This document shows, one piece after another, positions 32,524 to 40,963 of a stretch of DNA of 64,000 nucleotides. The stretch spans positions 1 through 64,000 of the forward strand of contig NZ_WOCA01000003.1 of the NCBI RefSeq assembly GCF_009728145.1. Direction: 5' to 3'. Every line of letters starts with the position of its first letter. Within the stretch, counting starts at the first letter, position 1. The position numbers and the translations under genes were made by a program. Under the pieces are notes generated by a model, which worked only from the letters and a program-made list of their open reading frames with translations, ran no database searches and had not been told where the DNA came from. Source of the DNA: Ornithinibacillus caprae. Lineage in GTDB: Bacteria > Bacillota > Bacilli > Bacillales > Amphibacillaceae.

Positions 32524-33351
32524 CTAACACTTATCATTTAATTTCTGATGATCATAACAATATATCTTGCCGTTAAACTTTTTATTAGATAAACAATATA
32601 TAGCAACCTTTTGCGACACTGCTTGATTGCATACCACACATTTCGAATTATTTATTATTCCGTTATTAGTTTTCTTCTTTTCTTTAATTCTAGTAGTGTG
32701 AGCCTCTCTGGCTTTTGGATCGATAATGTTTGCTTTCATTAAAGCATTAAAAATTGCCAATTGATCTTTTTCCGTCAGTAATGGCTCTTTATGTTTCATT
32801 TTTAAAATAGATACTTTTCTATTTATAGATTCGATTAGGTAAATATCATAGATTACTAGTTCATCTGAATGGATATCTCTGAGTTCGAAGTCAATTTTTA
32901 ACGTACAACGTTTGGTAAACGAGACAATGGATATAAACTTTTCGTGATATTTTTTATCGATATACTTTTTTAGTGCCTCTATGTGACCATAGTTTTGAAT
33001 GATTGGACTCAACATCTTAAACTTTCCATTAACAAGCCACGTTTTTCGATCCTTTCCGCCATAAATTGTTCCCTGATAATTCTTTGTTTCAATTCCAAAA
33101 ATACCATATGGAGTAATTACAAGATGGTCTATTTGAGAGTAACTAGATATAGACTTTGGATTTTCGATCATTATGTCGTTTAGGTATCTGTACTCTTTTG
33201 GGAGTTGAGAGAGTTGGATATCTATTTTATATTCTCCAATTTCTCCTTTTCTGGCTGCGACTTTTGGGTTGTCATGTTTCTTCTTGTAACTATCAATATA
33301 TTGATTATTCTTAGACGCTTTTTCCTTTTTCTTAAATAAGTTAAACAGCAT
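32524..33351 (-). CDS. NERD-domain nuclease-related protein with C-terminal zinc-finger-like motif
   Basis: The product is 275 residues. The NERD domain spans about 33-150. It has GEIGE (36-40), QIDHLV with D75, PYGIFGIETKNY with the E88-T-K90 pair, and later the IVSFTKRCTLKI strand. These acidic and lysine residues match the PD-(D/E)XK-like core proposed for NERD. The C-terminal 40 residues hold C238, C241, C253, C265, H268 and C275, an apparent zinc-binding module of the type seen with nucleic-acid proteins. It probably acts on DNA. It stands next to decayed and intact restriction-type genes. Confidence 0.8.
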   Translation of the reverse strand: MLFNLFKKKEKASKNNQYIDSYKKKHDNPKVAARKGEIGEYKIDIQLSQLPKEYRYLNDIMIENPKSISSYSQIDHLVITPYGIFGIETKNYQGTIYGGKDRKTWLVNGKFKMLSPIIQNYGHIEALKKYIDKKYHEKFISIVSFTKRCTLKIDFELRDIHSDELVIYDIYLIESINRKVSILKMKHKEPLLTEKDQLAIFNALMKANIIDPKAREAHTTRIKEKKKTNNGIINNSKCVVCNQAVSQKVAIYCLSNKKFNGKIYCYDHQKLNDKC

Positions 33352-34001
33352 GAATTTTCTCCTTATTTTTTCTCATTACTATTCAATAATAATATCGGTT
33401 CTAAATAGGAAAAACATAATAGTAATAGTGAAATCTAAGAAAATCATGTGTATAAGCTAATGACATGATCCAGTTCTATCAACCGATCTTGTGTTAACCA
33501 ACAACAACATCCAATTTTATTCAAAATAATTTTCTTGAATAAAAGCTAAATAATGCCATGTTGTTGCACTTCCAGCTTCAATGTAAGACAATACTCTTTC
33601 TATGTCCTTATAATATATATTTTCACTTACATATGCGCTTTTTAGTTTCATTTCAACTATCACAATTATATTTCATACAGACACCTAAATAATTCTCTTC
33701 TGTCTTATCAGGATCTATAGTCGCTACAACTAAACCAATCCTTCTCCTTGTGTATAGTACTCCGTATAAATACGCACATTGTTACGAATGAGAAATTCTT
33801 CTCCTAGTCTTCTTCTCAAATGAAAATAAAAGCATTTTTCATTGAATCTTCTTTTAATAAACACTAAATATCAGAGTCCTGTTTAATGTCTTCCATCTCA
33901 ACTTTTATATTGTTTTTATCTACTATTTCAATTTTGAATGATCATCCACTGAAACATTAGCACCTACTTGTTTTGTACCTTGTGCTAATAAATCGCAGTA
34001 C
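33352..34001 (-). pseudogene. decayed coding remnants, PD-(D/E)XK-like
   Basis: No intact gene is present. On the minus strand, fragments in shifting frames read coherently: FHLRRRLGEEFLIRNNVRIY (about 33760-33835), RIGLVVATIDPDKTEENYLG (about 33680-33750) and IVEMKLKSAYVSENIYYKDI through SATTWHYLAFIQENYFE, ending with TAA at 33517-33519. Joined, they give a spacing of I-[D]-LVV then VEMK, as in PD-(D/E)XK nuclease cores, but the expected Asp is Gly here. A further fragment (about 33870-33960, KIEIVDKNNIKVEMEDI) lies upstream. At least two frameshifts separate them. Assignment to a nuclease is inference from the pattern only. Confidence 0.5.
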
Positions 34002-34313
34002 TTAGTACTTTATATTACATATCTGATCCCCCTGCCTATTTTTACAACTTAAATCATTATCATTAACCTTCTTAATCCATTCTATTGCTTCTTCAATGGT
34101 ATTAATACTTAATTTGTTTTTGGATATCCATTCCCCATCTTTATACAATCTAAAGTAACTTCCTTCTGGATTGATATCACCTATTACGTTCTTTCTACGA
34201 CTCTTTGGATTTCTTGTGATACATTCACCATTAATACGTTCGCTTTTAAGATGTTTGTTGAGTATGATTTGTGGTATATCTGCAAGTCTTTCTAATAAAA
34301 TCTTATTTTCCAT
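34002..34313 (-). CDS. small protein of unknown function downstream of HNH nuclease
   Basis: The product is 103 residues. The first 35 look helical (LLERLADIPQIILNKHLKSERI). A beta-rich middle follows (GSYFRLYKDGEWISKNKLSI), then a helix with EEAIEWIKKV. Two Cys near the end (C94, C101 approximately) are not in a clear motif. GGGAG lies about 10 bases before the ATG. The gene starts 35 bases after the HNH gene, so they are likely cotranscribed; it may be a partner or immunity factor, which is inference. Confidence 0.55.
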   Translation of the reverse strand: MENKILLERLADIPQIILNKHLKSERINGECITRNPKSRRKNVIGDINPEGSYFRLYKDGEWISKNKLSINTIEEAIEWIKKVNDNDLSCKNRQGDQICNIKY

Positions 34314-34348
34314 TTATTTTGTACTCCCACTCTTAAATATTATTAGAT

Positions 34349-35296
34349 CTATATACTATTCTCTTCAATCCATTTCAACAAAAATTCTCGATTATTCTCA
34401 TACCATTGTGAACACAGATAATATTTCTTTCCAAAAATGGTTAATGGATCCTTATAGTATCTATTTCTGCCTTTAGAGTCTTGTTTTTGCACATCAAAAT
34501 CCTTTGTTTCATCTATTTCTTTTAATAATGGAAAGTTTAATTTAAATACTTCCTTAGAGTATTCTAATGTTTGAAATAACTCAATTTGATTAATAGGAAC
34601 CCGATTACTGACTAATACTCTTTTCAATTCTTCTTTTACAATGACACTAACTTTACGTTTATTTTTGATAGTATCTGACTTAACACTAACCTTTTCTGAT
34701 TCATTAGTTTTTGCTGAACTAAGTCCAAATGATGGATTTATGCTTCTACTAACCGTATGCTTAATTTCATCTGATAAAATTTGACTCTTTCGCATCATGT
34801 TATGTAAGTTATCACAGTTCTTCCAATGCTCTTCCCAAGCCTCTTTACCTACAATTTCTTCAAAACTAACTTTTATAGGTTTGCTCCATCTCTCATACTC
34901 TTCAAGTCTAGTAATTATCAATTGTAACTGATCAACATTACGTGTTTTGGGAGATAACTGTGCATCCCCCATGATCCAGTCTTTCCAATATGAATTTCCT
35001 TTTGATTGATTACACTTCCCGCAAGAAGGCACTAAATTATTAATCTCAGAGATATATCCGGTTGGTCTTTTATTTTGAATCAGTGGCCTAAAGTGGTCCC
35101 ATTCAGTATAGCTCCCACCACAATAAGCACATCGTATGAAATCAGACATTCCTAATATATTTAGCACTTCCATTATTTCCACTTCAGAAGGTTCAATACA
35201 AGGAATAACTCCATTAACAAATGCATTCGTAATACTAGATGTACGACCAGTTATTTTAACTGGTGTAGGCATTCTAAATACCAATGTTCCCTTCAT
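34349..35296 (-). CDS. HNH endonuclease, restriction-type
   Basis: ATG 35296 follows GGGGGAG by 7 bases and is preferred over the frame start at 35323. The 315-residue product has an HNH/zinc core at 56-101: CAYCGG (C56, C59), the D67-H68 pair in EWDHF, LVPSCGKCNQSKGN (C92, C95, N96, N101). This is the two-CxxC beta-beta-alpha-metal nuclease form. The C-terminal half is basic and includes FGKKYYLCSQWYENNREFLLKWI, probably for DNA or target recognition. It could be a stand-alone restriction enzyme or an effector of the adjacent McrB/DUF2357 pair. No methyltransferase is nearby. Confidence 0.8.
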   Translation of the reverse strand: MKGTLVFRMPTPVKITGRTSSITNAFVNGVIPCIEPSEVEIMEVLNILGMSDFIRCAYCGGSYTEWDHFRPLIQNKRPTGYISEINNLVPSCGKCNQSKGNSYWKDWIMGDAQLSPKTRNVDQLQLIITRLEEYERWSKPIKVSFEEIVGKEAWEEHWKNCDNLHNMMRKSQILSDEIKHTVSRSINPSFGLSSAKTNESEKVSVKSDTIKNKRKVSVIVKEELKRVLVSNRVPINQIELFQTLEYSKEVFKLNFPLLKEIDETKDFDVQKQDSKGRNRYYKDPLTIFGKKYYLCSQWYENNREFLLKWIEENSI

Positions 35297-35522
35297 TACT
35301 TTACTCCCCCTCATTATGAACAAAGATAAAGATTTGATTAGAGTATCTTTTCTATAAAGAACATTAACTTTGAATACTTCCGGATTGTATGCTAGCTACT
35401 CCTGTAAATGTTCTCTTTCTCTAAATCCTAACTCATTAAATGTTTTTTTGTTCTAGTTTAGAGATCCTGTTCTTATCCCTATCAATCAAAAACATAATGT
35501 TCCACTCCCAAATTTACTATTT

Positions 35523-38027
35523 TCATCTAACCAATAGTTCACTTACCACCCGAAACACCTTAGAAGGCTGCTCCCTCAATAACTTTAATGAAATTTCAGT
35601 ATCAGTCTCTCCCCTAGTTATTACAACCTTCTCTTCTTTTTGATCGATCATAACTATCAAACCAAGCACTTCAAATTGAGATACTTTTTCAGCCAAATCA
35701 ACACTCGCACTATCTAATTGAAGACTTGAACGCTTGGAGATTCTTCTTAACATTTTCCATATCTTCATTTCTTCGGGTGATTTCATAAAAAGTTCAGGAA
35801 GTTCAGTAGCTTCTTTTAAGTTATATAAGGTAGTCATCATATAATGCATAATCCCATACTTAACTGGCTTAATAGCTTTATCGAGTGACTTCCATAACTT
35901 AACTTCAAACACAACATACTTTCCAGTGCTACTAACAACGCTAAAATCATTACCGTTACTAAATTTTATTTCCTCGATTTCACCAAATAAGGAAACTCCA
36001 TCTTGATTCCCGAATTCTTTCTTTGGAAGATACAGTCCAACATACTTAGCTTCCTGCCAGCCCGCTCTTAAATTTTCTAACGGGATAATAAATCTTTTGT
36101 TCTTCAGACTGTCTTGATAAGTGGCATCGTTTTCCACTTTTCCTATTAAAACCTTCTCTTCTAAAGAAGACTGCCACGTGTCTAATGTACCTTTTGGAAG
36201 AATCCCCTCTTCTTGCAATTCCTCTGGACTTTTCTCAATCAACCTTTCGATAAATTGCTCTACTAATCGTGTGCTATTTGGTAAGAAAGGAAATCCACCA
36301 ATATTTACCTGGTCTATACTTTTATAAAAGTCATGCTCCTCATAACCCTCTTCATCAAACCAAGGAAATAAAACATACGCTCCAAATGAGTATCTTTCGT
36401 ATGGCCCATTCTCTTTTTGAACCAATGCATCCCTATAGCGGTGCATCGTATTGATATCTTCTTCTAAAGGTCCGGGTTGTAGGTAATTTCGCTTATAATA
36501 GGTACCTTCCGCTGCAAAATCAATTCGGTACTTCGCATCAAAAATATAATGATAGGCGTGATTTTTACCATTTTTCTCGATACTTAGTATGGAATCAGGC
36601 TTTTGTGATACAGTAGGAAGTTTCCGGTTTGCCTTTTGAAAATGCAAGGTGACCTTCTCACTAGTAACTGGATGTTTAAATACTCTTTTAGCAGAAGCAG
36701 TTTCATCCAACCGCACAATTAGCCCGCTACGTTTTACCTTTATAATATCTTGACTGACCATTGGGTATTTTGCAGCTAGGATTTGTCCCAACTTTATAAA
36801 TGTCCAATATTCATATAAGGTAGCAACATCTTTAACAGACATATTATAAAGTTGTCCATGAAGAATAAGTCCGCGAGATACTGTTAAATAAATTTTATAA
36901 ACATCCCTATAACCTGGTGCCATCTGCATAACTAAGCTCATAACAGAACGATCAAGTTCATCCACTTGTCTCCAAATGGGGGACCTAATTTTCCCTTCAA
37001 GCTTTGTCCTCATCTGACTTATTTTTTGAAGGAGATCAGCATCATTTTCTTTTTTATAAGGATGATTTGGTGATTCGATCGTATCTAGTAGACCATCTAA
37101 TTTATTCACTAACCGCTTCATCATATATTTAATAAATTGATTTTCTAACGTATTATAAGACAATTCCTTTTTCACATTAAGACCGTGTTCAGGCATCATC
37201 TTCTGCCCATTTATTGATAGTCCGTCTAAAACTTTTCGAAACAGTTGGGGTCGTTTCCTTAAATAGTTACGCCCTAAAGCATCTACTTTCTTCAGTTGAT
37301 CTCCCCTCACCTTTTTATAGGTTTTGATTAATTGGTGGTGAGGTTGTCTCTCAATCACGTTGATCGAATTCATCAGACTGGTGAAATGATTATCAAATAA
37401 ACGATAAAATTCTGACCACGTAGGTTGTGAAGTTATCGAAGTCGTCGCACCTAAATAAGTCTTTTTAATAAAATCGTACGCTAGATTGTATACTTCTTCG
37501 TTCACTTCTTCTAATAGCTTTTTGTAATCCTCTTTATAATTTAACTTAATGGGATAAATCTCCATCGTAACTTGAAGTAAAACAGTCTTATTTTCATCAT
37601 GAATTTCAAAAGTCGAATATCCTACTTCATTTTGAAACTGAAGGTTTCCCATCAACACTTGGTGTGGGTGTGTGCCAACACTTGTAACAGCTTTACGTAA
37701 AGCCGGATGCTCATGATAGAAGGATAGCTTCTTATCACTTTTTGGTGTAATTACTAATTGATAGACTCGATTTTCAAAAAATATAGGAGCTACATGTAAA
37801 TTACTTGTCAATTTTTCCTCTTTCAAATCATAGATTAATACCGATTGAACACCTTCTCCTGTTGCGGAAAACTCCATCGTTTCTTCTATTTCAATCATTT
37901 TATAGTTTTGTAAACCCTCATACCTATCGTGAAAAGGTTTACCCTTTATATATAAATGGAAATCGTTCGTTTCTATTTCTACTAATTCCGTATCCTCATT
38001 AACCGATCCAGAAAGAAGTGAAGCCAT
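35523..38027 (-). CDS. DUF2357 McrC-like nuclease subunit
   Basis: ATG 38027 follows AAGGGGG by 7 bases, giving 834 residues; it overlaps the McrB-like gene by 29 bases. The first part (to about 190) is a beta-rich DUF2357 domain (FHLYIKGKPFHDRYEG, HPHQVLMGNLQFQNEVGYSTF). A long helical region follows (LGRNYLRKRPQLF, LENQFIKYMMKRL). A PD-(D/E)XK core is visible: P477-D478 in KPDSIL and D497-A-K499 in FDAKYR. It is the nuclease that would be driven by the AAA+ partner, as McrC is by McrB. The C-terminal 200 residues have a second beta-rich region of unknown role. Confidence 0.8.
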   Translation of the reverse strand: MASLLSGSVNEDTELVEIETNDFHLYIKGKPFHDRYEGLQNYKMIEIEETMEFSATGEGVQSVLIYDLKEEKLTSNLHVAPIFFENRVYQLVITPKSDKKLSFYHEHPALRKAVTSVGTHPHQVLMGNLQFQNEVGYSTFEIHDENKTVLLQVTMEIYPIKLNYKEDYKKLLEEVNEEVYNLAYDFIKKTYLGATTSITSQPTWSEFYRLFDNHFTSLMNSINVIERQPHHQLIKTYKKVRGDQLKKVDALGRNYLRKRPQLFRKVLDGLSINGQKMMPEHGLNVKKELSYNTLENQFIKYMMKRLVNKLDGLLDTIESPNHPYKKENDADLLQKISQMRTKLEGKIRSPIWRQVDELDRSVMSLVMQMAPGYRDVYKIYLTVSRGLILHGQLYNMSVKDVATLYEYWTFIKLGQILAAKYPMVSQDIIKVKRSGLIVRLDETASAKRVFKHPVTSEKVTLHFQKANRKLPTVSQKPDSILSIEKNGKNHAYHYIFDAKYRIDFAAEGTYYKRNYLQPGPLEEDINTMHRYRDALVQKENGPYERYSFGAYVLFPWFDEEGYEEHDFYKSIDQVNIGGFPFLPNSTRLVEQFIERLIEKSPEELQEEGILPKGTLDTWQSSLEEKVLIGKVENDATYQDSLKNKRFIIPLENLRAGWQEAKYVGLYLPKKEFGNQDGVSLFGEIEEIKFSNGNDFSVVSSTGKYVVFEVKLWKSLDKAIKPVKYGIMHYMMTTLYNLKEATELPELFMKSPEEMKIWKMLRRISKRSSLQLDSASVDLAEKVSQFEVLGLIVMIDQKEEKVVITRGETDTEISLKLLREQPSKVFRVVSELLVR

Positions 38028-40071
38028 CAATCTGCCCCCTTCTAAGCATCTCATGTACTTTCTTCGCAGATTTTGGATATTTGGCGTTTTCTAAAATCTC
38101 TGCTTGATTTTCCGGTTCTTCCTCTTCAAATTGATGATTCGTGCAGTATTCATAAATACTTTCCAATACTTTAAAAGCTCTAGGTTCACTTGCAGTGATT
38201 CTTGGTAATATCTTTTGATGTAATTGATAATCAAATGCATTATCAAATCCCATCAAATACCTACTGTAAATTAAATAGAAACAAATTTCATCGCGAACCC
38301 TGTATCCGATGTGAGCCTGAATTGGAGTAAGAATCTTATTTATTTCTAGCAGCCTATCCGTGACATCATGGATAATTTGTTGGTGTTTGTCATATGCATC
38401 TTTTAAATAAAGGTATTGCGATTGAATTCGTTCATTTGGTAACTGTATCGAACCAACATCACTCGCACTAGAAAAATTAAACCCATCTAATTTTACTTCA
38501 TTGAATTCAATCGTATTTGCGCGATCCAATACCTTCTTACTAAATGGATGAGTCGTTTCATCCATATTAACCGTACCTATAACATACAAGTTTGGTGGAA
38601 TAGTTATTTCTTCATTTAACTGCTCCTGTGGTATTAAAGCAGAAGTTTTTATTTCTCCGTCTTTCCACTTTCTACTTTCTATTACACTTAAAAAATCACT
38701 AAAATAGTATTCTACTCGTGCAAGATTCATCTCATCTAATACAACAAAATATGGTCTAGATTCATCATTCTGAGCATCTTGTATGAATGTTGTTAGAGGA
38801 CCAGCTTGGAAGTCCCCCTTAATATCGACATATCCTAATAGGTCTGAACCATCACTCCAGTCCGGCCTAACAGGTACTAACTTAAATCGTCCATTTTCTT
38901 CTGTTGCTCCTATACTTTCCGCAAACAATTCTACTATTTTTGTCTTCCCTGTCCCAGAAATCCCAGACAAGATGACAAACGGTTTTGTTCTTAGCGAGAG
39001 GAAAAGATTCTTTACCTCATCTTCTTTATAATAAAAACCTTTCGAAGATATATAATTATGTATATGATCAACCATTTCCTTATCCGACAGGTATTCCTTT
39101 GAACTTTCACTAGTTTTCTCTTTTGAGGAATCTAAGTTATATTCAGTCATTATTGTTCGCACCTCCACTGGAAAACGATCCGAAAATTGCTGGTATAGAT
39201 TTTGAGCAAATGTGTTGGAAACTGGATAAAAGTATCCTTGGTTAATATCCCCTTTTCTATTAAAAGGGCCAAGTTCATCTAAGCGCCACTGGATAGGAAT
39301 CTCTTCTTTAGCAATGGTCGGTTGTAATTCATAATAACCAAGTGCTAACTTATATCCATTTACTTGCCATTCATCACTGGTAATTTCAGTAGGTTTCTGG
39401 GCTTCAAACGCCTGTTCTTTAACTATTCCAATTGCCCTCACTTCTTTGGCCGAATAGCAAAGCACAATGTCACCAGCTTTGGCTTCTAATAGTCGTTTAT
39501 GATGATCTACCTCTCTCCCATGTTTAGCTTTCTGTGGCGCCCAAAGATAGCCCCCATCTTTTTCCTGATTATGTGTCTTCCCCTGGTTCACCCACCAAAA
39601 AGATGGTTTTCTTGATTTCTTCTTTTTGGTACGAAACTTTACTTTATATACATAAGGCTCATTTGTTTGATAGAAATCGATAAATTCTGCTTTATCTTCA
39701 GGAGTGAAAACAGGTTTCTTAGACTTTTCTTCACGATTTTCTAGTAAATAATTATAAGAAACTGAAAATGATTCTCTTAGATTCTCCTTTAGATTTTTGT
39801 TTTGATCGTATCTTAGTTGCAGAGAACCTTTCTCATAATCTTTTCTTCTGTTATTTACTATCTTAGCTTGGTAAGGTTGATCATTAATTATTAACTTTAC
39901 ATTGGCTTCCTCACCAACTTCTAAAGAATTATTTCCGTTAGCAGTGATAAAATCTCTATGAAACTCATTAGGTATTTGTGAACCATACTCGAAAATAGAC
40001 CAATCTACTTTTTTTGTTGCGATCAAATCTTGTCTTTCGTCCTTTGACCAACTTCTTACTTGTTTAATCAT
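37999..40071 (-). CDS. EVE-domain McrB-type AAA+ GTPase (type IV restriction)
   Basis: Start at ATG 40071, 8 bases after GGTGA; a TTG 15 bases further up is in frame. The 690-residue product has an N-terminal domain of about 150 residues resembling MrcB-N/B3-like DNA readers (FHRDFITANGNNSL). An EVE domain follows at about 158-295 (FWWVNQGKTH, GGYLWAPQKA, AGDIVLCYSAKEVRAIGIV), then a McrB AAA+ module. Its Walker A is GISGTGKT (370-377), Walker B is VVLDEMN (443-449) and the McrB signature is NMDETT (502-507). EVE domains bind modified bases. The protein would recognise modified foreign DNA, move on it and activate the DUF2357 nuclease, whose gene it overlaps. Confidence 0.88.
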   Translation of the reverse strand: MIKQVRSWSKDERQDLIATKKVDWSIFEYGSQIPNEFHRDFITANGNNSLEVGEEANVKLIINDQPYQAKIVNNRRKDYEKGSLQLRYDQNKNLKENLRESFSVSYNYLLENREEKSKKPVFTPEDKAEFIDFYQTNEPYVYKVKFRTKKKKSRKPSFWWVNQGKTHNQEKDGGYLWAPQKAKHGREVDHHKRLLEAKAGDIVLCYSAKEVRAIGIVKEQAFEAQKPTEITSDEWQVNGYKLALGYYELQPTIAKEEIPIQWRLDELGPFNRKGDINQGYFYPVSNTFAQNLYQQFSDRFPVEVRTIMTEYNLDSSKEKTSESSKEYLSDKEMVDHIHNYISSKGFYYKEDEVKNLFLSLRTKPFVILSGISGTGKTKIVELFAESIGATEENGRFKLVPVRPDWSDGSDLLGYVDIKGDFQAGPLTTFIQDAQNDESRPYFVVLDEMNLARVEYYFSDFLSVIESRKWKDGEIKTSALIPQEQLNEEITIPPNLYVIGTVNMDETTHPFSKKVLDRANTIEFNEVKLDGFNFSSASDVGSIQLPNERIQSQYLYLKDAYDKHQQIIHDVTDRLLEINKILTPIQAHIGYRVRDEICFYLIYSRYLMGFDNAFDYQLHQKILPRITASEPRAFKVLESIYEYCTNHQFEEEEPENQAEILENAKYPKSAKKVHEMLRRGQIDGFTSFWIG

Positions 40072-40618
40072 AATTTTTGTCACCAACTTATAATATTTTT
40101 CGTTTCTGTACTGGCTATTCCATGGAGTTTATACAATTAAATATAGAGAGTTAAATTACCCTTCTTCTTAATGTGAATGTTCTGGTTAGTTTGCAAAAGG
40201 GAAAACCACGCTATATCCGATAACAACTGTTTTATACTTTCCAATAGCTTAAATATCCTATCAAAATGTAATATAATATATAAATAATATTTGAAGTATG
40301 TTTAGAACCTTGCCATTACCAATTAATTGTAAACAATCAACTAAAAATAAACTCCTATTTTCATTTCTTTCAAGAACATAGACAGAGCATTTATTATTTC
40401 ACTTGCTAGACAACTATAACTCCGATCACTTTTCCTACAGCTTATATAAGCTACTTTGTTTTTCAGCTTTTCCTCCGAATTCTGTGAGATTATTTAGTAT
40501 ACATTTCGACATTATAATGTAAAATCCCTCCTAAAAGCACTATTAAAAAATAGACCTGATCTTTGGGTTTCCATTACAAAGACCAGGTTCTAATCATTAA
40601 AGAATATAATTTTATACA
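40072..40618. other. AT-rich intergenic region upstream of the mcrB-like gene
   Basis: No open frame with a ribosome site was found. A hairpin at about 40552-40591 (GACCTGATCTTTG with CAAAGACCAGGTT) ends the nuclease-like fragment gene on its right. The promoter of the mcrB-like operon should lie near 40090-40250, but no clear boxes were chosen. Confidence 0.5.
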
Positions 40619-40963
40619 TTAATATGCCTGTATTCCAATTTTCAACAATTTCTTTGGCAAAATATCATCTAGATTTTGTATGTCCCAGTCCTGAATTTCT
40701 ATCAAATTAAACCCATACTTTTCATATATTTTTAACTTTTCTTCTTTTCTTTTTTGATATTTTGGATCATTTTCCAGTCCCCAGTATTCTATGTATACTT
40801 TTCCAACTGGTAAGTAAAAATCAGTGTATACACCTTCTTCTATAGGTAACTTTCTTTCATAAGCATGTATAATTTCAGACATATATAACCAGTTGTCGAT
40901 TAACATCTCAACCCTCGATATATAAAATGATTGGAGGGTTGGAGTATGAATAAAACCAACCAA
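40619..40963 (-). CDS. truncated Vsr/DUF559-like nuclease-fold fragment
   Basis: The product is 114 residues. The readable core is YERKLPIEEGVYTDFYLPVG, KVYIEYWGLENDPKYQKRKEE and KYGFNLIEIQDW. This has the Asp..Glu-x-x pattern of very-short-patch-like PD-(D/E)XK domains (D in TDFYLP, E in YIEYWG), where a W or K follows Glu. Relatives usually carry an N-terminal DNA-binding or zinc region that is missing here, and no ribosome site is evident, so this may be the surviving C-terminal part of a larger protein. A hairpin follows its stop. Confidence 0.5.
   Translation of the reverse strand: MVGFIHTPTLQSFYISRVEMLIDNWLYMSEIIHAYERKLPIEEGVYTDFYLPVGKVYIEYWGLENDPKYQKRKEEKLKIYEKYGFNLIEIQDWDIQNLDDILPKKLLKIGIQAY

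Follow-up and report, generated by a model that had tools for sequence, protein, structure and literature searches.

Four neighbouring genes on one strand of the Ornithinibacillus caprae genome raise the question of whether they constitute a single defence system or a known pair that has acquired company. They lie in a contig stretch of 64,000 nucleotides (hereafter, the window) and encode an McrB-type AAA+ protein, an McrC-like protein with a DUF2357 domain, an HNH nuclease, and a protein of 103 residues. A sequence-only reading had grouped all four as one cassette, in which the first two genes would be a type IV restriction arrangement and the HNH gene and its small partner an addition outside the standard layout. 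Here we examined the domains and motifs of these genes and their recurrence in other genomes.

Gene content and setting of the block

The ORF listing of the window places the four ORFs on the minus strand, in the single direction and at the coordinates that had been read from the sequence (Table 1). The McrB ORF extends from a TTG at 40086 to 37999, and the in-frame ATG at 40071 is its likely start. The DUF2357 ORF was listed from 38054; the ATG at 38027, with GGGGGC just upstream, is likelier, and the overlap with the McrB gene reported earlier is kept with this start. The HNH ORF was listed from a TTG at 35323, and its likely ATG at 35296 is preceded by GGGGGAG. Counted from this ATG, the gap between the DUF2357 and HNH genes is exactly the 226 bases given before, but this stretch is no plain spacer: remnants of a broken gene can be read in two of its frames, interrupted by stops. 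The likely start of the 103-residue gene is 34313. G-rich ribosome-site-like stretches were found upstream of the DUF2357, HNH, and 103-residue genes. Neither promoter-like sites (38 versus 36.3 expected) nor terminator-like sites (5, all on the opposite strand, versus 2.9 expected) were clearly above shuffles. A scan that took in eight ORFs around the block revealed no methyltransferase, as the sequence-only reading had noted.

Table 1 Features of the block and its edges in the window.
Feature	Position	Strand	Basis
NERD-domain protein	32524..33351	-	Pfam scan
Second broken gene, in pieces, downstream of the 103-residue gene	33352..34001	-	No DNA match in the plasmid collection
103-residue protein	34002..34313	-	No Pfam match; probably a passenger
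HNH nuclease with a separate C-terminal domain	34349..35296	-	Pfam HNH, four invariant cysteines, AlphaFold2
C-terminal domain of the HNH protein	34355..34660	-	Common to other proteins behind McrB/DUF2357 pairs of the clade
Broken-gene remnant between DUF2357 and HNH	35324..35522	-	Weakly NucS-type nuclease-like
McrC-like protein, DUF2357 and PD-(D/E)XK_7	35523..38027	-	Overlaps the end of McrB
EVE-McrB-type AAA+ GTPase	37999..40071	-	AAA_5, PDB 6yex match, motifs, PDC-M26A
Predicted EVE modified-base reader domain within McrB	39190..39603	-	Residues 162-299 of the 695-residue ORF; phmmer to PDB 6yex
PDC-S69 / HEAT-CxxC-PDDEXK candidate defence gene, C-terminal fragment	40619..40963	-	Model positions 190-289 of 289

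The GC content was 0.30–0.36 in the 2-kb bins at 32–42 kb versus 0.34–0.41 in the rest of the window. With its low GC content and the fragments at its edges, the block has the appearance of a reworked defence island. The remnant in the gap gave a 29-residue match (E 0.016) to a protein that is itself NucS-like (E 1.6e-8). Neither this remnant nor the second one had a DNA match in the plasmid collection, and the second also lacked a match in the proteins encoded by the collected loci. The broken pieces flank the HNH and 103-residue genes, which suggests that one or more earlier occupants of the slot behind DUF2357 have been overwritten. The PDC-S69 piece upstream of McrB comprises the last 100 residues of the model, and its front part is absent.

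The McrB/DUF2357 pair

Pfam assigned AAA_5 (E 3.3e-8) to the McrB protein, and DUF2357 (E 1.3e-78) and PDDEXK_7 (E 3.4e-52) to its partner. Pfam listed no EVE domain in McrB; residues 162–299 matched PDB 6yex in a phmmer search (E 6.3e-17), the entry of the EVE-HNH enzyme VcaM4I. The AAA+ part matched McrB chains such as 6hz4 and 6ut6 in a PDB sequence search, and the protein matched the PADLOC candidate model PDC-M26A with E 1.3e-54. It carries the Walker A motif GISGTGKT, the Walker B motif VVLDEMN, and VNMDE. In the McrC-like protein, the PD...DAK nuclease residues are in place, and the 843-residue ORF continues for approximately 270 residues beyond the nuclease domain. VNMDE is an NxD motif in the naming of a 2024 survey, passages of which describe this form as defining an McrB branch without any characterised GTPase and place the CoCoNuTs in the same branch (PMC11090510).

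The window thus holds an McrB with Walker and Nx(x)D motifs, an adjacent McrC with DUF2357 and PD-(D/E)XK domains, and an EVE reader recognised by sequence match. With its domains, NxD motif, and PD...DAK residues intact, the first pair is what the sequence-only reading took it for: the two genes are an intact type IV (McrBC-class) pair, predicted from their sequences to cut modified DNA. The pair adds a new member to a known kind of system, within the uncharacterised NxD branch. It resembles McrBC of Escherichia coli in that an AAA+ McrB with a fused reader accompanies a DUF2357-PD-(D/E)XK McrC. In contrast, the E. coli reader is DUF3578 according to passages of PMC7641849 and that of the window is EVE, the window has NxD where E. 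coli has NxxD, and the size of the McrC-like ORF and its extension after the nuclease domain also set it apart.

We searched 397 genomes of the same order and found a DUF2357 match in 113; the 65 matches with E 4e-61 or better, window included, were taken as the long-form set. McrB was located directly upstream of DUF2357 in 63 of these 65 loci. In the 64th (L120), the contig start cuts McrB down to its last 29 residues; L119 lacks a close McrB and has a distant AAA match further upstream. Frame breaks split some of the 65 pair loci (e.g., L035, L133, and L136). VNMDE or INMDE was found in 63 of 64 McrB ORFs, L126 included, the exception being a second, different McrB. An EVE-type reader was detected in only 21 of the 64 McrB ORFs by a model seeded on the window, and the McrB proteins of two Sutcliffiella-type loci did not match this model. 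Therefore, the reader domain varies and the pair is constant. In plasmids, long DUF2357 gave one record at E ≤ 1e-50, from Caballeronia (62% match, 28.5% identity).

The HNH protein and its neighbourhoods

The third gene had been called a zinc HNH nuclease. Pfam found the HNH domain (E 7.5e-6), and the four cysteines of the predicted zinc site were invariant in 19 of 19 aligned proteins; a conserved His is residue 77 of the 324-residue ORF. The AlphaFold2 model of the whole protein had a mean pLDDT of 85.7. The best Foldseek matches of this model (lowest E 0.059) were Cas9 chains and Cas9 HNH domains, and CBASS Cap5 appeared further down the list.

Two identifications of the protein were rejected. 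Its HNH core is like that of PADLOC PDC-M01B (E 2.9e-7) and Septu PtuB (E 1.9e-6), but the match is limited to the core and its surroundings, and the block holds no recognised PtuA partner; with both a full-length PtuB match and the PtuA ATPase missing, the protein is not assigned to Septu. VcaM4I resembles the window in the EVE domain of McrB described above, but here EVE and HNH are on separate proteins. No EVE match to the HNH protein was obtained by Pfam or PDB profile search, and its C-terminal domain gave no alignment with an EVE profile (hhalign probability 0.2).

The N-terminal HNH part was found in 7 of the 397 genomes, a count that includes a truncated copy and a fragmented gene. It lies behind the pair in three of the seven, namely the window's genome, G010, and G224, the last two of one genus; among the 65 pair loci, with two duplicates removed, HNH thus comes behind the pair in three. 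In the second genus (Sutcliffiella-type loci), a MazG-like gene is located between DUF2357 and HNH. An HNH gene behind the pair is a real variant of this layout, and an uncommon one.

In one-genome-per-species contigs, we collected 23 other HNH-family loci with up to 8 kb on each side, five of them from genomes already in the set of 397. The McrB pair was near HNH in only two of these, from Sutcliffiella horikoshii and 'Bacillus horikoshii'. Other loci contained a SauUSI-like type IV enzyme (L142), an McrA-like HNH protein (L146, L153, and L162 of Rossellomorea, one in fragments), GmrSD (L158), or the Lamassu-type LmuB (L143), and the remaining ones had housekeeping, metal-efflux, or unassigned neighbours, some ending at contig ends. 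A predicted modification-dependent nuclease adjoins HNH in at least 7 of the 23 loci, and the family searches covered the neighbours in six to seven of the 23. A MazG-like gene was found on the same strand within 8 kb of HNH in eight loci (L142, L144, L146, L147, L148, L153, L155, and L162). The outcome named beforehand as speaking against a single system is the one obtained: HNH occurs mostly alone or with other partners.

The C-terminal HNH of the McrA-like partner in Rossellomorea matched PDB 6ghc (E 2.5e-4), and an EVE domain in this partner was not supported (hhalign probability 5.6). The plasmid collection contained five partial matches to the HNH protein, three of which cover the C-terminal domain alone, and the phage collection contained none. 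The Hymenobacter loci L002 and L003 contain a short HNH relative that lacks the C-terminal domain and lies inside annotated heavy-metal efflux operons; the neighbours in L163 and L164 have the same sizes as those in L002 and L003 and no annotation.

These neighbourhoods are what would be expected if the HNH protein were an independent solo defence nuclease, working alone or with other partners and carried behind the pair by island shuffling, and the broken gene between DUF2357 and HNH points the same way. We regard this as a serious possibility short of even odds. Against it stand the same position of HNH in a second genus and the distribution of the C-terminal domain, which occurs beside the long-DUF2357 clade far above chance placement.

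The C-terminal domain of the HNH protein

The HNH protein has a modular build, and its last ca. 100 residues recur on otherwise unlike proteins. This domain is fused to a MazG-like domain in L033, forms stand-alone proteins of 160 residues in L035, L036, L038, and L043, and ends a 296-residue protein behind the pair in L037. The AlphaFold2 model of the domain had a mean pLDDT of 91.7. No convincing relative was found in Pfam, no PDB sequence fell below E 0.018, and Foldseek against the PDB gave no match with E ≤ 0.001 (best E 1.2).

A profile search detected the domain in 20 of the 397 genomes. In eight of these carriers, a long DUF2357 gene lies no more than 6 kb away on the same strand (L027/L147 and L029/L148 each taken once), and in 12 the domain is not beside the pair. 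Nine genomes contain both long DUF2357 and the domain; the two are close in eight and approximately 16 kb apart in the ninth (G339). The chance of eight of nine falling within 10 kb under uniform placement is ca. 2e-18. This value takes no account of island clustering or shared descent (of the carriers near the pair, three belong to one genus and two to another), and the adjacency is therefore strong support for an association and not proof of joint function. The C-terminal domain is strongly tied to this McrB-pair clade, and it is the interesting part of the HNH gene.

The domain also ends proteins of ca. 320–344 residues away from the pair (L032, L034, L039, L040, and L041), and that of L039 belongs to no Pfam or NCBIfam family. 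In L035, L036, L038, and L043, a protein of 280 to 304 residues with a MazG-like end precedes the stand-alone protein; its front part has no assigned family, and no McrB pair was seen in L038.

Proposed role of the HNH protein

On the gene content, domains, motifs, and co-occurrence numbers observed, we favour, with a probability of roughly 0.55, a predicted type IV restriction pair that has recruited a swappable HNH accessory nuclease. The EVE domain would read a modified base of incoming DNA, and the AAA+ ring of McrB would assemble and move along the DNA by nucleotide hydrolysis. The DUF2357 protein would stimulate McrB and cut through its PD-(D/E)XK domain. Behind the pair there would be an exchangeable slot, filled here by the HNH protein as an accessory nuclease that is possibly co-transcribed with the pair and would add a second cutting activity. 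The C-terminal domain of the HNH protein most probably binds either the McrB/DUF2357 complex or the DNA that this complex acts on, because this domain ties otherwise unlike proteins (HNH, MazG-like, and stand-alone) to the clade. Several points count against an accessory role: HNH is rare behind the pair, most of its relatives occur elsewhere, more than half of the carriers of the C-terminal domain do not have it beside the pair, the broken gene in the gap fits chance replacement as well as selection, and the adjacency statistics are weakened because defence islands cluster unrelated genes.

Passages of the two main surveys (PMC11090510 and PMC7641849) contain no description of an HNH gene behind such a pair, and the words HNH and MazG are absent from the main text of PMC11090510. 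To this extent, the earlier remark that the layout is not a standard one stands. However, an extra nuclease as such is not new, because passages of PMC11090510 report HEPN or other predicted nucleases beside CoCoNuTs whose own nuclease is lost, and call the loss of the McrC nuclease in CoCoNuT frequent, not universal.

The 103-residue gene and the weaker alternatives

That all four genes act as one system, as had been proposed, is very improbable. It has in its favour the shared strand and close spacing of the genes, with 35 bases between HNH and the 103-residue gene. On the other side, HNH occurs in few pair loci and the 103-residue gene accompanies the other genes in the window alone. This protein had no Pfam match; its relatives were found in five other genomes of the 397 (one with an internal stop), and none of them is beside HNH or McrB in stretches of 9.5–13 kb. 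Likewise, no relative was found in the 23 other HNH loci (E ≤ 1e-6, ORFs of at least 60 residues), the plasmid and phage collections contained no match, and none was confirmed in viral contigs. The matches of the relatives end at residues 72–82, indicating that the last 20 residues of the window protein are not shared. In L139 the neighbours of the relative include a type I restriction subunit and a GIY-YIG protein, in L137 an SNF2 helicase, and in L141 genes whose sequence reads as integrase-like. The 103-residue gene is probably an island passenger, as the nearby gene fragments would also be.

The window shares with the CoCoNuTs of the NxD branch an NxD motif followed by E and a large McrC partner; unlike many of them, it keeps the PD...DAK residues within a well-matched PDDEXK_7 domain and, with an HNH nuclease close by, has no HEPN nuclease among the eight ORFs scanned. 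By analogy with this group, for which passages of PMC11090510 predict RNA or modified RNA as the target, the pair could act on RNA with HNH as its DNA-cutting complement, which the VNMDE motif and the shared branch favour, but we consider this highly doubtful in view of the retained nuclease residues, the lack of a HEPN gene in the scanned ORFs, and the closeness of the EVE reader to that of an EVE-HNH endonuclease (6yex).

MazG-like NTP pyrophosphohydrolase beside predicted modification-dependent nucleases

A MazG-like gene was found on the same strand within 6 kb in 16 of the 65 pair loci (L027, L029, L033, L035, L036, L043, L082, L085, L088, L095, L105, L111, L116, L121, L124, and L131). 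MazG and the C-terminal domain occurred together in 6 of the 65 (Fisher p 0.002, with related genomes included uncorrected). At E ≤ 1e-15, the MazG family was present in 244 of the 397 genomes, mostly in a single copy, and absent from the window's own genome; the window has the HNH part without the MazG partner. A search of PDB sequences with the MazG profile gave nothing at E ≤ 0.01. A NERD-domain gene was observed near the pair in four of the 65 loci (the window, L100, L110, and L120), all among the 49 pair loci without MazG.

We also inspected 40 MazG loci away from the pair (L186–L225), a non-random draw with 20 from the top of the list and 20 lower. In 16 of the 40, a SauUSI-like or PLD-helicase nuclease, of predicted type IV, was located no more than 300 bases away on the same strand, and with the limit widened to 2 kb the number rose to 20; an HNH gene of another kind was within 300 bases in seven. 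Fourteen had, on the same strand, none of the five searched types up to a distance of 6 kb, though L204, L215, and L219 among them had one nearby on the other strand. The SauUSI-like queries had no match in the 65 pair loci, which argues that SauUSI-like genes are not common in just any island. From their PADLOC label, the SauUSI-like helicases are predicted to depend on modification. MazG was observed to recur beside varied predicted modification-dependent nucleases, namely the NxD-McrBC pair, SauUSI-like PLD-helicases, and an McrA-like HNH protein.

Parts of two papers report mammalian MazG-like enzymes acting on 5-methyl-dCTP (PMC10742078 and PMC4491611), and a figure legend in PMC7641849 shows MutT homologues beside SauUSI homologues. 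Among the titles and abstract starts of open-licence PubMed Central, we found no paper linking MazG to type IV restriction or McrBC, and nothing relevant on McrB with EVE and MazG or on PDC-M26. In open-licence PubMed Central, 'modification-dependent restriction' with pyrophosphohydrolase returned PMC7641849 alone, and SauUSI with MazG, pyrophosphohydrolase, or pyrophosphatase returned none with SauUSI among the matches listed.

One conceivable, though unlikely, extension is that the modification-dependent nucleases of this order share an exchangeable kit consisting of a dNTP-clearing MazG and proteins that, like this HNH nuclease, end in a docking C-terminal domain. Modified dNTPs, for example 5-methyl- or 5-hydroxymethyl-dCTP, would then be the target of the MazG-like enzyme, which by destroying them would keep host DNA free of the mark that its own nuclease attacks or starve the phage of it; this cleaning role is our own suggestion. 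The new domain would dock a second nuclease onto the McrB/DUF2357 complex.

Implications

The pair belongs to an McrBC branch whose GTPases are called uncharacterised in passages of the 2024 survey (PMC11090510). If the MazG link is functional, it would answer how a cell that has a modification-dependent nuclease and no protecting methyltransferase spares its own DNA. The C-terminal domain of the HNH protein provides a concrete handle on this branch, whose accessory proteins it marks, and it may allow bacteria to swap effectors by serving as a docking module.
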